From positions 1-64,000 of the forward strand of contig JADZEI010000032.1 in NCBI GenBank assembly GCA_020850615.1: a DNA stretch of 64,000 nt. The letters run 5' to 3'. Below the pieces are notes generated by a model that saw only the letters and a program-made list of their open reading frames with translations, did not search any database and was not told where the DNA came from. Of this stretch, positions 36,455-46,017 are shown in pieces; the first letter of the stretch is position 1; each line of letters opens with the position of its first letter. The position numbers were made by a program, and so were the translations under genes. Origin of the DNA: Dehalococcoidia bacterium (lineage in GTDB: Bacteria; Chloroflexota; Dehalococcoidia; Tepidiformales; Tepidiformaceae).

Positions 36455-36542
36455 GGAGAGGTGTCCGAGTGGTTGATGGTGCCGCTCTCGAAAAGCGGTG
36501 TGCAGCAATGCACCGGGAGTTCGAATCTCCCCCTCTCCGCCA
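36455..36542 (+). tRNA. tRNA-Ser (anticodon CGA)
   Basis: An 88-base class II tRNA including encoded CCA (36540-36542). The acceptor stem GGAGAGG pairs with CCTCTCC, the anticodon stem CCGCT/AGCGG encloses CTCGAAA giving CGA, a long variable arm (around GTGCAGCAATGCAC) is present, and the T loop is TTCGAAT. All features fit tRNA-Ser. Confidence 0.96.
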
Positions 36543-41328: not shown

Positions 41329-41383
41329 CAACCCTCACCCCCTAACCCCCTAACCCCTCTCCCTGCGGGGAGAGGGGAACCTT
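41329..41383 (+). repeat. REP-like element R1 (forward)
   Basis: ACCCTCACCCCCTAACCCC is followed by a 10-bp hairpin, CCCCTCTCCC at 41354-41363 and GGGAGAGGGG at 41368-41377. The first of four alternating elements. Confidence 0.85.
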
Positions 41384-41433
41384 GCTGCTGCTTCTGCCTC
41401 GGCCGCGGCAAACGTCACAAACGACGAGGCCAG

Positions 41434-41477
41434 GCCCCCTCTCCCGCCGCAGCGGGAGAGGGTCGGGGTGAGGGTGG
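41434..41477 (-). repeat. REP-like element R2 (reverse)
   Basis: CCCCCTCTCCCGC and GCGGGAGAGGG hairpin followed by TCGGGGTGAGGGTGG, the inverted form of R1. Confidence 0.85.
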
Positions 41478-41511
41478 CGCCGTCGCGGGTGCCGTTCCGC
41501 TGTCGCCGCGG

Positions 41512-41556
41512 CAACCCTCACCCCTAACCCCTCTCCCTGCGGGGAGAGGGGAACCT
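41512..41556 (+). repeat. REP-like element R3 (forward)
   Basis: AACCCTCACCCCTAACCCC with the same CCCCTCTCCC hairpin as R1; followed, like R1, by GGGGAACCTT. Confidence 0.85.
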
Positions 41557-41593
41557 TCGTGTCACGGGAACAAGGTGGCAGACGGCGAGGCCA

Positions 41594-41640
41594 GCTCCCT
41601 CTCTCTCCGCCGCGAGAGAGGGTTGGGGTGAGGGTGGTGG
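41594..41640 (-). repeat. REP-like element R4 (reverse)
   Basis: CTCCCTCTCTCTC and GAGAGAGGG hairpin with TTGGGGTGAGGGTGG, inverted relative to R3. Each reverse element is preceded by a shared CGAGGCCAG string. Confidence 0.82.
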
Positions 41641-41702
41641 CACCCCTCTTGGCCATCCGCAACTCCCCGTCCCCGCTGCTGTCCGTCCTACCGCGCGGTC
41701 AC

Positions 41703-41738
41703 GGCCGTTCGGGCCCCCTAAATTGGGGCCGAACGGCC
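41703..41738. repeat. Long imperfect palindrome upstream of the Fe-S operon
   Basis: GGCCGTTCGGGCCCC (41703-41717) and GGGGCCGAACGGCC (41725-41738) pair over 14 bp with one bulged G and the AT-rich loop CTAAATT. It is unlike the neighbouring REP elements and lies 64 bases before the first ATG; operator, attenuator or terminator are all possible. Confidence 0.6.
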
Positions 41739-41801: not shown

Positions 41802-42662
41802 ATGTGCCGAATGTGCGATAGCCTGGGTGGGGACGCGGCCAACCCGTGGTACCTGAACCCAAAGAACTACAGCAACCGGATGTACAAGCTGCGCGAGCCG
41901 GGCAAGGGTCCGCAGCAGGCGGCGACCGCCGGCGCCATCGAAGCGGGTGGCGAAGCCCAGCACGCCTCGCCGATCAACACCGCCATTGAGGCCAAGGCCA
42001 ATGGCGATATGGAGACGTTCAACAAGATCATCGGCGAGATGAACAAGCGCGCTGCCCTGCGCCCCGGCTGCCAGGTGGTCCCCCTCCACGAAGTCATGGA
42101 AGTGCTCGACATGGGCATGCCCGTGGCCGCCATGCAGTGCATCTGCCGCAAGACCACCCGCGGCTGCGAGGAGTGCTCCCTCAAGGAATACACCGGCCTC
42201 GGCCTCGGCACCGGCATGCTCAAGTGGGAACGCTGGCCCGAGCGCTACCGCGGCAAGGTCGAGTTCCTCAGCACCAAGCAGGCCAAGGAGTTCGTGGAGT
42301 TCTGGGACAAGAAGGGCTTCATGCACATGCTGATGCAGGAGGGCGGCGACTTCATCGGCGGCCTCTGCAACTGCGACTACCCCGACTGCCTCCCCATCCG
42401 CCAGCGCATCGACTACGGGCTCACCGCCCAGCTCGTCAAGAGCGAGTACGTCTGCTTCGTTGACTGGGATAAGTGCAACGGCTGCGGCGACTGCCTGGGC
42501 CGCTGCGACTTTAACGCTCTCAAGTACGAAGCCACGACCGAAAAGGCGCACATCGACCAGTTCCAGTGCTTCGGCTGCGGCCTCTGCGAGACCGCCTGCC
42601 CCCGCAACGCGATCGAATACCGGGACCGCAAGCAGATCCCCGGCCTGGCGAAGGTGTGGTAA
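41802..42662 (+). CDS. Multi-cluster 4Fe-4S protein, first gene of Fe-S/PHP operon
   Basis: A 286-residue Cys-rich protein with 19 cysteines. An N-terminal C2-x2-C5 opens it. Then come C113-x-C115-x6-C122-x2-C125 (CICRKTTRGCEEC) and C189-x-C191-x4-C196 (CNCDYPDC), the CxCR and CNC signatures of an archaeal-type Fe-S family. Two standard 4Fe-4S motifs follow, C225-x2-C-x2-C-x3-C235 and C256-x2-C-x2-C-x3-C266. It is probably an electron carrier or redox subunit. GGAGG lies 6 bases before the ATG. TAATG overlap with the next gene. The partner enzyme is not known. Confidence 0.75.
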   Translation: MCRMCDSLGGDAANPWYLNPKNYSNRMYKLREPGKGPQQAATAGAIEAGGEAQHASPINTAIEAKANGDMETFNKIIGEMNKRAALRPGCQVVPLHEVMEVLDMGMPVAAMQCICRKTTRGCEECSLKEYTGLGLGTGMLKWERWPERYRGKVEFLSTKQAKEFVEFWDKKGFMHMLMQEGGDFIGGLCNCDYPDCLPIRQRIDYGLTAQLVKSEYVCFVDWDKCNGCGDCLGRCDFNALKYEATTEKAHIDQFQCFGCGLCETACPRNAIEYRDRKQIPGLAKVW

Positions 42663-42934
42663 TGGAAGCCATCATCGCTCCCGTCATCGATATCGACCGC
42701 GAACGGTGCACCACGCCCTTCGCCTGCAAGAAGTGCCTCCAGATCTGCCCGACCGCCGTCCTCGCCGTGCACGAAACGCGCATGGTCCGGCTGGAAGAGA
42801 CAGACAAGTACCTGCCCGGCACCTACCGCCTGCGCATCGCCTACCGCGATAAGTGCAGCGGCTGCAACCGCTGCGTCGACGTCTGCCCCGAAGACGCCAT
42901 CACCGTGCGCATGCTCGAGGAGGTCGGAGCGTGA
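42662..42934 (+). CDS. Dicluster 4Fe-4S ferredoxin-like protein
   Basis: A 90-residue protein with two cluster motifs: C16-x5-C22-x2-C25-x3-C29 (the first spacing is longer than usual) and C65-x2-C68-x2-C71-x3-C75 followed by PEDAI. It resembles a small ferredoxin with a 35-residue insert between the motifs. The ATG overlaps the previous TAA by one base and its own stop overlaps the next GTG, so expression is tightly coupled. Presumably it passes electrons to or from the first gene's product. Confidence 0.82.
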   Translation: MEAIIAPVIDIDRERCTTPFACKKCLQICPTAVLAVHETRMVRLEETDKYLPGTYRLRIAYRDKCSGCNRCVDVCPEDAITVRMLEEVGA

Positions 42935-43542
42935 CCGCAGCAATCGAACGCGAACGCGTCGTATTCCCCAAGGACTGGACTTTCGACCTCGCCGAAGAGA
43001 TGGTCGAAGCGATCGCCCACGAGTTCGCCCCGGCCGAGGTCGTGGCCGAGCTCGCCCGGCGGATCAACGGCAAGCCGCAGGCCGAGGCGGTCGCGGAGGC
43101 GGAAGCGTACTTCGCCGACCACGGCCACCGCTGGATGGGCCGCACGATCGAGCTGGGCGAGAAGTACCGCGACCGCACCTACGAAGTGCTGCTCGCGGCC
43201 GCCGAAGCGACGGGCGAGCTCGCCTTCCCGCACGTGCCGGAGCGCTTCATCGAGATCGCCTACCTCAGCACGCAGCCGCTCTACTCGCTGCCCATCGTCG
43301 AGAACACGCGCCACTGCTTCGCCTTCAAGATGGTGTTCTGCGACACCTACCGTGCGCTCGAAGAGCAGTGCGGCGACGCGATGGCGGCGGCCCTGCCCTG
43401 CCGCAAGAGCTGCCTCGCCGCCGTCGACCGCGCCTTCCGCGATAAGGGCTTCGACGTCGAGGTGGTGCAGGATTCCTCGCTCGCCGACGGGGAGTTCTGC
43501 CAGTTCACCTCACGCAGGCGGGAGGCCGCGAGCGGTGCATGA
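42931..43542 (+). CDS. Unrecognised Cys-rich protein of the Fe-S operon
   Basis: A 203-residue protein that I do not recognise with confidence. The N-terminal 125 residues are helical and charged. The C-terminal part has C129, C137, C147, C157-x3-C161 and C190 in GEFCQFTSRR. The closing C-x-F with an upstream Cys cluster recalls V4R and aminothiazoline-carboxylate-hydrolase-like domains, a weak eye match. GTG start overlaps the upstream stop (GTGA); an 8-base overlap follows. Its membership of the operon is the best evidence of a redox role. Confidence 0.65.
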   Translation: MTAAIERERVVFPKDWTFDLAEEMVEAIAHEFAPAEVVAELARRINGKPQAEAVAEAEAYFADHGHRWMGRTIELGEKYRDRTYEVLLAAAEATGELAFPHVPERFIEIAYLSTQPLYSLPIVENTRHCFAFKMVFCDTYRALEEQCGDAMAAALPCRKSCLAAVDRAFRDKGFDVEVVQDSSLADGEFCQFTSRRREAASGA

Positions 43543-43786
43543 CGGCCACCCCCACGGGAGCTGCGGCGACTGCGTCGGCTTCGTGACGCCGTTCACCCGG
43601 GTGGCGCGCTATGCCGCCTGGGGCTACTGCGGCGAACAGACGCCGTCGCCCCCGGCGGGCGCGCTCGATGAGCTCGAACGCGCCGCGCTGGCCGGCGACC
43701 GTGCCGCCCTTCGCACGAACGCCATCGGCCTTTTCCGGCCGGAGGACGACGACTGCTGCGACTTCTTCCGGGAGCGCCAGGTGTGA
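43535..43786 (+). CDS. Small Cys-rich protein, possible HiPIP-like cluster binder
   Basis: An 83-residue protein with C10-x2-C13 (GSCGDCVGF), C32 (WGYCGEQ) and C74-C75 (DDDCCDFF). The layout of CxxC, then a GYC turn, then a D-C close to a Phe, resembles small subunits of glycyl-radical enzymes such as benzylsuccinate synthase, which bind a 4Fe-4S cluster; this is an inference from spacing only. GTG start with GGAGG about 9 bases upstream; it overlaps the preceding gene by 8 bases and the next by 4. Confidence 0.6.
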   Translation: MHDGHPHGSCGDCVGFVTPFTRVARYAAWGYCGEQTPSPPAGALDELERAALAGDRAALRTNAIGLFRPEDDDCCDFFRERQV

Positions 43787-44511
43787 CTGCGCCCGCGCGT
43801 CCCGCTGCCACGCTCGTGGACCTGCACTGCCACACCGGCTGGGGGTCCGGCGATAGCCATACGGACCCGAACGTGCTCATCGCCCAGGCGAAGGCGTTCG
43901 GGCTCCAGGGCATTTGCATCACCGAGCACAACCAGCTCTGGGACGCGAAGCGCATCGAGCAACTCTCCGACAAGCACGACTTCCTCGTCATCGGCGGGAT
44001 CGAAGTCGATACCGACATCGGCCACGTGCTCGTCTACGGGCTGCGCGCGCCCCGCCGCTTCATCCGCCTCCCGCGGATCGAAGAGCTCCGGCGGATGGTC
44101 GACGAAGTGGACGGCGCGATGGTCGTCGCCCACCCCTTCCGCAAGCGCGCGAAGCCCGCGACGACCGAGTTCACTTCCGGCCACGCGCTCGAGCTCGTCG
44201 AACAGGCGCTCGAACTGCCGTTCTTCGACCTCGTCGACGGCGTCGAGGTGCACAACGGCATCGCGGGGCCGCTCGAACGCGCGTTCGCGGGCGTTGTCGC
44301 CGGCGAACGCAAGCTCCCCACCACCGGCGGGAGCGACACCCACCGGCACCCCGAGGTCGGCACGACCTTCACCGTGTTCCCCGGGGGTGTCCGCACCGAA
44401 CAGGACCTCATCGACGCCATCAAAGCCGGCGAAATGCGCGGCGCAGACTGGGACGTCGAAGGGATCCACGACCGCCGCCTTACTTCGCTATTGCCACGCT
44501 ACGCCGGCTGA
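43783..44511 (+). CDS. PHP domain metal-dependent phosphoesterase
   Basis: A 242-residue PHP protein. Metal-binding motifs: DLHCHTGWGSGDSH, ITEHNQLWD, GGIEVDTDIGHVLVYG, MVVAHPFRKRAKP, and GGSDTHRHPEVG near the end. Such proteins are phosphatases or RNases acting on small phosphates or 3',5'-bisphosphates. The GTG start overlaps the previous stop (GTGA). It is the last of five coupled genes; a phosphoesterase beside Fe-S proteins is an unusual combination. Confidence 0.85.
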   Translation: MTAPARPAATLVDLHCHTGWGSGDSHTDPNVLIAQAKAFGLQGICITEHNQLWDAKRIEQLSDKHDFLVIGGIEVDTDIGHVLVYGLRAPRRFIRLPRIEELRRMVDEVDGAMVVAHPFRKRAKPATTEFTSGHALELVEQALELPFFDLVDGVEVHNGIAGPLERAFAGVVAGERKLPTTGGSDTHRHPEVGTTFTVFPGGVRTEQDLIDAIKAGEMRGADWDVEGIHDRRLTSLLPRYAG

Positions 44512-44548: not shown

Positions 44549-45760
44549 ATGACTGCGACCAGCGACACACTCCTTTCGACACCGCCCGCGGAGTTGGTGG
44601 CGGCCGACCTCACCGCGCTCGTCGCGACCACCCCGGCCGCCGAGCGCTACGCCGTGCTCTCCGAGTGGTCGCGCCAGCGCGTGGCCGCCGAGGCAGCTTC
44701 CCTGGCCAACACCGGCGGCGGCGTTGTGATCATCGGCGCCCAGCAGGCTGCCGGCGGCGCCATCTCCGGCTTCGCCGGCGGCGGTGCGTCCATGGCCGGC
44801 GAAATCGCCAGCATCGCAAGCGACCTTGGCCCGGCCGGCGCCCATCTCGTCGCCCACGCCATCGTCGATGTCGGCGGCGCGCCCGTCGGCGTCATCCGTG
44901 TCGCCGAGTCCGTCGCCCCGCCCGTGCTCGTCGAGACCGACGGCGCGATCTACAACCGCACGGCCGCAGGCTGCACCCGCGTCCTCACCCGCGCCGGGCT
45001 CGACGCCCTCACCGGCCGCGAACGGTCGCTGCGCGAGCGCGCCGAGAAGAACCTGAACGCGATGGTGACCCGCAACGAATCGGGCCACTTCAACTACATG
45101 ACGCTCGCCGTCACCATCGCCCCCCGCGTCACCGGCGCCGGCCCCTACGCCTGGGCAAACAGCAACCAGGCCGCACTCGTGGACCGCAGCCGTGGCCTCG
45201 CCGCGCGCTGGAGCTTCGAGCCCGGCTTCGTCGGCGTCTCCGCCGGCGAGATCGTCGTCGCCCCCGCGGGTGAAGTCGGCGGGTTCCTCCGCATCTCGCG
45301 GAATGGCACCGTCGCCGCCGGGGAGCACCTCCGCCGGCCGCCGAGCGCCACGTTCATCCCGGCCACCGAGCTCGCGGACCGCCTCCGCGCCATGGTCGAG
45401 CTGGCCGCCCTGCCGCTCCGCGGCGCCGGCGGTGGCCTCGTCGTCGCTGCGGTGTCCGTCGAATGCGTGCGCGACCTGCGCCTCAACGTCGAAGGCGGCC
45501 TCTCCCGCCCGGCGAGCCGCGACACGGCCACGGTCTTCGTCGCCGAGCGCTACCTCGAAGACGACTCCGAGCTCGCGCAGCTCACCGCCGACGTGCTCGC
45601 CGCCGCCGGAGCCCTCTGGGGTGCCGACCTCGTCGCGGGTACCGGCGCCTACGCCGGCGAAGCCGAGGACAGCACGAACGACGCCCGCACCTGGCACGGC
45701 ATCACCCGCCGCACCGAACGCCGCGTCGCCGGCGCCCGCGGCCACGGCAGCGCGCGCTAG
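44549..45760 (+). CDS. AlbA_2/Schlafen-type putative DNA-binding protein
   Basis: A 403-residue protein. Residues about 35-135 (EWSRQRVAAEAASLANTGGGVVIIGAQQ, GAPVGVIRVAESVAPPVLVETDGAIYNRTAAGCTRVL) match the AlbA_2 pattern, in which a helix precedes NTxGG and an IIG strand and a Y-x-R-x-G-x-x-T segment ends the fold. The C-terminal 250 residues show no motif that I know. Known relatives are putative regulators and Schlafen-like nucleases. CGGAGGA lies about 8 bases before the ATG. A hairpin lies 50 bases after its stop. Confidence 0.72.
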   Translation: MTATSDTLLSTPPAELVAADLTALVATTPAAERYAVLSEWSRQRVAAEAASLANTGGGVVIIGAQQAAGGAISGFAGGGASMAGEIASIASDLGPAGAHLVAHAIVDVGGAPVGVIRVAESVAPPVLVETDGAIYNRTAAGCTRVLTRAGLDALTGRERSLRERAEKNLNAMVTRNESGHFNYMTLAVTIAPRVTGAGPYAWANSNQAALVDRSRGLAARWSFEPGFVGVSAGEIVVAPAGEVGGFLRISRNGTVAAGEHLRRPPSATFIPATELADRLRAMVELAALPLRGAGGGLVVAAVSVECVRDLRLNVEGGLSRPASRDTATVFVAERYLEDDSELAQLTADVLAAAGALWGADLVAGTGAYAGEAEDSTNDARTWHGITRRTERRVAGARGHGSAR

Positions 45761-45930: not shown

Positions 45931-46017
45931 GGAGAGGTGCCCGAGAGGTTGAAGGGAACCGTCTTGAAAACGGTCGACCGATGAGGTCCGTGGGTTCGAA
46001 TCCCACCCTCTCCGCCA
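45931..46017 (+). tRNA. tRNA-Ser (anticodon UGA)
   Basis: An 87-base class II tRNA with encoded CCA at 46015-46017. The acceptor stem GGAGAGG/CCTCTCC is identical to the other tRNA-Ser; the anticodon stem ACCGT/ACGGT encloses CTTGAAA giving TGA; a long variable arm (around GACCGATGAGGTC) is present and the T loop is TTCGAAT. Confidence 0.96.

Follow-up and report, generated by a model that had tools for sequence, protein, structure and literature searches.

What kind of system is encoded by a run of five overlapping genes for ferredoxin-like, cysteine-rich and PHP-type proteins in the genome of a Dehalococcoidia bacterium? The window, a stretch of 64,000 nucleotides from contig JADZEI010000032.1, carries these five co-directional genes at 41802-44511, with successive overlaps of 1, 4, 8 and 4 bases. 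We call them P1 to P5, and P6 the sixth gene 3' of P5, which lies outside the interval considered in the first-pass annotation:

41802-42662, plus strand: P1, 286 aa with 19 Cys, ferredoxin-like
42662-42934, plus strand: P2, 90 aa with 8 Cys, dicluster ferredoxin
42931-43542, plus strand: P3, 203 aa with 6 Cys
43535-43786, plus strand: P4, 83 aa with 5 Cys, small Cys protein
43783-44511, plus strand: P5, 242 aa, PHP-fold CehA/McbA-type metallohydrolase
44549-45760, plus strand: P6, 403 aa, starting 37 bases past the end of P5

The first-pass annotation had described a coupled five-gene Fe-S operon containing a 19-Cys protein, a dicluster ferredoxin with an odd first motif, two unrecognised Cys-rich proteins and a PHP protein. 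Gene order, the overlaps of 1 to 8 bases and each of these descriptions are borne out by the analyses below. Its statement that overlap means stoichiometric synthesis does not follow, since overlap is compatible with translational coupling and implies nothing further. Relative to L033, the closest homologous operon, the genes show dN/dS values of 0.13 for P1, 0.14 for P2, 0.16 for P3, 0.42 for P4 and 0.10 for P5, indicating purifying selection on all five, and of 0.30 for P6. By these values P1-P6 are all maintained proteins, and because the low dN/dS is accompanied by a gene order kept in relatives, P1-P5 are real genes. The operon is present in four relatives of the same family (L033-L036), and in each of them P6 directly follows P5; with P6 added, the operon appears to be longer than five genes.

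An Rfam search of the operon returned no match. Palindromic repeats rich in G+C occur in the intergenic region at 41347-41660, where one 37-bp copy at 41347 recurs unchanged at 41521, and a 36-bp near-perfect palindrome (GGCCGTTCGGGCCCCCTAAATTGGGGCCGAACGGCC) lies upstream of P1 at 41703-41738. The latter was rejected as an operator candidate, as it was not found upstream of six relatives. Two tRNA genes are located near the operon on the plus strand, at 36455-36539 and 45931-46014.

Whether the five genes always travel together was addressed by a scan with P1 as query, using one genome per species: 97 relatives were obtained and 80 kept, five of which end at a contig edge. P2 and P3 lie directly behind P1 in 73 of the 75 untruncated loci. 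One of the two exceptions (L067) is on the same contig as a locus with an intact triad (L075), and the other (L057) appears to belong to G066, a genome in which P1 is on contig C30 but P2-P3-P4 are on contig C39; neither is thus clearly lacking the set. The cluster is conserved in relatives, and P1-P2-P3 do nearly always occur together. P5 does so often (it adjoins the triad in 18 loci from several phyla, downstream in most of these phyla and, in Desulfosporosinus, directly upstream of P1), and P4 in part of the class. From these comparisons the conserved unit is the triad P1-P2-P3, not the five genes. The P1 relatives belong among Bacteria to Chloroflexota, Desulfosporosinus, Desulfovirgula, Desulfobacterota, Hydrogenedentota, Poribacteria and Abyssobacteria, and among Archaea to Bathyarchaeota, Asgard, Baldrarchaeum and Methanolliviera; the intact triads come from Chloroflexota, Desulfosporosinus, Desulfobacterota, Hydrogenedentota, Bathyarchaeota, Asgard and Methanolliviera. 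Most of these genomes are MAGs, in which single contigs (the 'Pseudomonadales' one, for example) may be misbinned; the Desulfosporosinus hosts include cultured species. P3 itself is present in 11 of 99 genomes of relatives and in 39 of 393 genomes of the class.

A standard 2x[4Fe-4S] ferredoxin domain is predicted at the C-terminus of P1, with its Cys at positions 225/228/231/235 and 256/259/262/266. This tail and P2 both match Fer4 models above curated cut-offs, with two CxxCxxCxxxCP-type motifs each. The N-terminal region of about 210 residues has no family match in Pfam or NCBIfam, and searches of the PDB by sequence and by fold matched essentially nothing beyond the ferredoxin tail. Across 38 aligned sequences, the ferredoxin Cys and seven others (C2, C5, C113, C115, C189, C191 and C196) are invariant, the latter forming the motifs C2-x2-C5, C113-x-C115-R and C189-x-C191-x4-C196, and a KWERWP motif is nearly so. 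The same order of Cys motifs (CxCR...ICNCC...2xFer4), with a ferredoxin tail, occurs in unnamed Fe-S proteins of about 350-385 aa that are named by Pfam and NCBIfam only through Fer4-type models (L183, L184 and L185). Unlike P1, these proteins have an additional N-terminal region, whereas P1 starts with MC-x2-C, has KWERWP and adjoins P2-P3; they are distant, longer cousins of P1 within the same class. This family is broad, with several copies per genome (a member is encoded at L183:1196-2344). A paralogous P1-P2 pair without P3 was also observed (L050:837-1888, also in L049), some 8 kb away from the main triad, its P1 copy being 31% identical to that of the window.

The unusual feature of P2 is its first motif, C-x5-C-x2-C-x3-CP in place of the usual CxxCxxCxxxCP, which recurs in the relatives read (L083 and L069, for example). 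In one lineage P2 and P3 are fused into a single 294-aa protein (L097:8874-9755). At another locus the P2-P3 pair is duplicated and flanks P1 on both sides (L065:3200-5880).

Four Cys of P3 are invariant (C137, C157, C161 and C190 in the window protein), and 23 homologues keep four Cys, one Arg, one Glu, one Gly and one Phe without exception. It matched no family in Pfam or NCBIfam, being missed by the models PF14196 and PF02830 (V4R), and PDB matches by sequence were at chance level, revealing no solved relative. Its fold was approached through the AlphaFold (AF2) model of a homologue, L006, which is 51% identical to the window P3 (mean pLDDT 93). In the PDB, Foldseek matched this model best to TRAPPC3/Bet3 proteins and to H-NOX domains. 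The lowest E was 3e-4 and the probability about 1.0, with TM-scores of 0.3-0.5 that denote partial similarity; a fold search of BFVD gave nothing below E = 0.001. Profile comparison with hhalign yielded 89.5% (P = 2e-6) between P3 and PF14196 (ATC_hydrolase) over the C-terminal 90 residues or so, with three of the four invariant Cys aligned, and 95.5% between PF14196 and V4R, against a negligible 3.2% for P3 and V4R directly and 0.15% for P4, used as an unrelated control. The P3 profile thus appears distantly related to PF14196, from which P3 differs by its fourth invariant Cys, its own N-terminal half and its tie to ferredoxins; unlike V4R, it is not a regulator's domain. V4R domains share the Bet3 fold, and binding of hydrophobic ligands has been proposed for them (PMC2253512); in DmpR, phenol is bound in the V4R domain adjacent to a zinc liganded by Cys151, Glu172, Cys177 and Cys185 (PMC7264223). 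In view of the fold matches, the profile links and the DmpR precedent, P3 is best described, on the basis of the model, as a new family with a predicted Bet3/H-NOX-type fold, and is probably a metal-bearing binder of small molecules.

P4 homologues start with MH[D/E] and have C10-x2-C13, C32 and C75 invariant; they belong to no curated family in Pfam or NCBIfam and were detected in Chloroflexota only. P4 is present in 14 of the 393 genomes of the class, 10 of which carry P3, as compared to 39 of 393 overall (Fisher p = 2e-8). P5 scored 90.8 bits against NF038032 (CehA/McbA), for which the curated cut-off is 80, and its metal-site motifs HCH, TEH, AHP and SDTH are intact. It is accordingly predicted to be a CehA/McbA-type PHP metallohydrolase, differing from known members of this family by its genomic link to an Fe-S triad, reported here.

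Other neighbours of the triad are more variable. Many loci encode a GltD-like flavoprotein (PRK12771), which we liken to DsrL, immediately before P1 and an SDR on the downstream side; most triads do not have the flavoprotein. The window triad differs from such NAD(P)H flavoprotein systems in that none is adjacent and the acceptor proteins are different. Further neighbours include a CooC/ParA-like ATPase, an enoyl-CoA hydratase, HpaB-type enzymes and an unnamed protein of about 193 aa. The family of the last one, exemplified by L064:11146-11733, has no Pfam match and recurs downstream of triads behind the SDR gene. In L049-L051 the triad neighbours a PPDK gene, with dgt, dnaG and rpoD genes close by. 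Since the metabolic neighbours differ by lineage, no single pathway is implied.

The reading that we favour, tentatively and at a little below an even chance, is that of a ferredoxin-wired redox complex whose P3 subunit would bind a small organic substrate next to a metal liganded by Cys. P1, P2 and P3 would assemble into a soluble iron-sulfur complex. P1 and P2 are predicted to carry about four [4Fe-4S] clusters between them, and the N-terminal domain of P1 a probable further metal site. Electrons would pass from these clusters to P3, or in the reverse direction, and would be drawn from the ferredoxin pool or from NAD(P)H where the flavoprotein gene immediately precedes P1. As the Bet3/V4R-type ligand-binding subunit, P3 would accommodate a small, probably hydrophobic organic substrate next to its presumptive four-Cys metal centre. 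P5 may then hydrolyse an ester or phosphoester of this substrate, and P4 may serve as an accessory or metal-binding part in the Chloroflexota version. Two ferredoxins constantly accompany P3, which speaks for electron transfer, as do the P2-P3 fusion and the NAD(P)H flavoprotein that many loci encode; the fold of P3 speaks for a bound small molecule. Further points in favour of the complex are the near-constant triad itself, the invariant Cys of P1 and P3, the position of P5 beside triads of several phyla and the three 2-oxoacid:ferredoxin oxidoreductase matches in the host genome. Against it, no cofactor for catalysis and no active-site motif was identified in P3, whose four Cys could instead form a structural zinc site. 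The lineage-dependent metabolic neighbours, the triads that have no flavoprotein or no P5, the negligible direct match of P3 to V4R and the partial fold similarity also count against it. A bolder version, in which the triad is an undescribed oxidoreductase of Bacteria and Archaea with P3 as its metal-bearing catalytic subunit and with electrons supplied by two ferredoxins that include a novel metal domain at the N-terminus, seems possible but rather doubtful. To our knowledge, no member of the Bet3/H-NOX fold has such a catalytic role.

The host genome contains two full COX1 genes and three matches to the gamma domain of 2-oxoacid:ferredoxin oxidoreductase, and COX1 also occurs in the host's family. 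These COX1 genes rule out a restriction of the system to strict anaerobes. P3 is nevertheless rarer in genomes with COX1, which is found in 13 of 39 P3 genomes versus 214 of 354 others (p = 0.002).

Among the alternatives, the one that survives best, although we consider it unlikely, is a redox or ligand sensor. P3 would sense a small molecule or a gas, the clusters of P1 and P2 would report the redox state, and output would be relayed by partner proteins; P5 might hydrolyse a nucleotide used in signalling. The V4R and H-NOX relatives of the P3 fold are sensors (PMC2253512, PMC7264223), some triads have regulators close by (sigma-54 activators in Desulfosporosinus, MerR-like genes in Dehalococcoidales), and P6 displays a weak, sub-threshold Schlafen/AlbA_2 similarity. 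However, no output domain or regulator is conserved with the triad across phyla, no fusion of P3 to a signalling domain occurs in the loci seen, and two ferredoxins would be excessive for a sensor.

Somewhat less probable still is a cofactor-assembly or metal-delivery module that would serve another oxygen-sensitive enzyme, with P3 and P4 as carriers. Several loci have CooC/ParA-like ATPases downstream of the triad, and in two genomes without P3 (G075 and G097) the P4 homologues L159 and L160 adjoin such an ATPase and a small protein that we take to be CooT-like. P3 is also enriched in genomes with Ni-CODH (20 of 39 versus 80 of 354, Fisher p = 3e-4), a comparison confounded by kinship. On the other hand, about half of the P3 genomes, including that of the window, have no CODH, most triads are devoid of the ATPase, and no client enzyme is constantly linked to them.

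Chance adjacency of unrelated genes could explain why P4 and P5 are missing from many triads and why their order is swapped in L021, and may apply to P6; it is refuted for P1-P3 by the conservation of the triad across domains, and the co-occurrence of P4 with P3 and the presence of P5 on either side of triads from several phyla make it very improbable as a general explanation. The weakest candidate, for which we see hardly any room, is that of accessory Fe-S subunits of a glycyl-radical enzyme, a lead raised in the first-pass annotation from the loose resemblance of the P4 Cys spacing to such small subunits: these have been solved structurally, yet the P4 profile matched no PDB chain even at E = 10, and in the loci examined no radical enzyme or activase was recognised, as the annotation itself had remarked.

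The ferredoxin-wired redox complex thus combines parts of known general kinds, namely ferredoxins, a PHP protein and a known fold, into a set that matches no described system we found. The open-access literature yielded none with this gene content, in agreement with the first impression of the locus, and P3 and P4 were not found to be subunits of a known enzyme. By sequence, P3, P4 and the N-terminal domain of P1 have neither a named family nor a solved relative. That the triad is maintained in Bacteria as well as in Archaea implies a biochemical function of its own, as yet unassigned as far as we could find; the databases searched list the triad under no name or function. Naming this function would annotate many genomes of microbes that are hard to grow, and the triad would offer a test of whether redox catalysis can involve a fold familiar from sensors and from proteins that tether vesicles.
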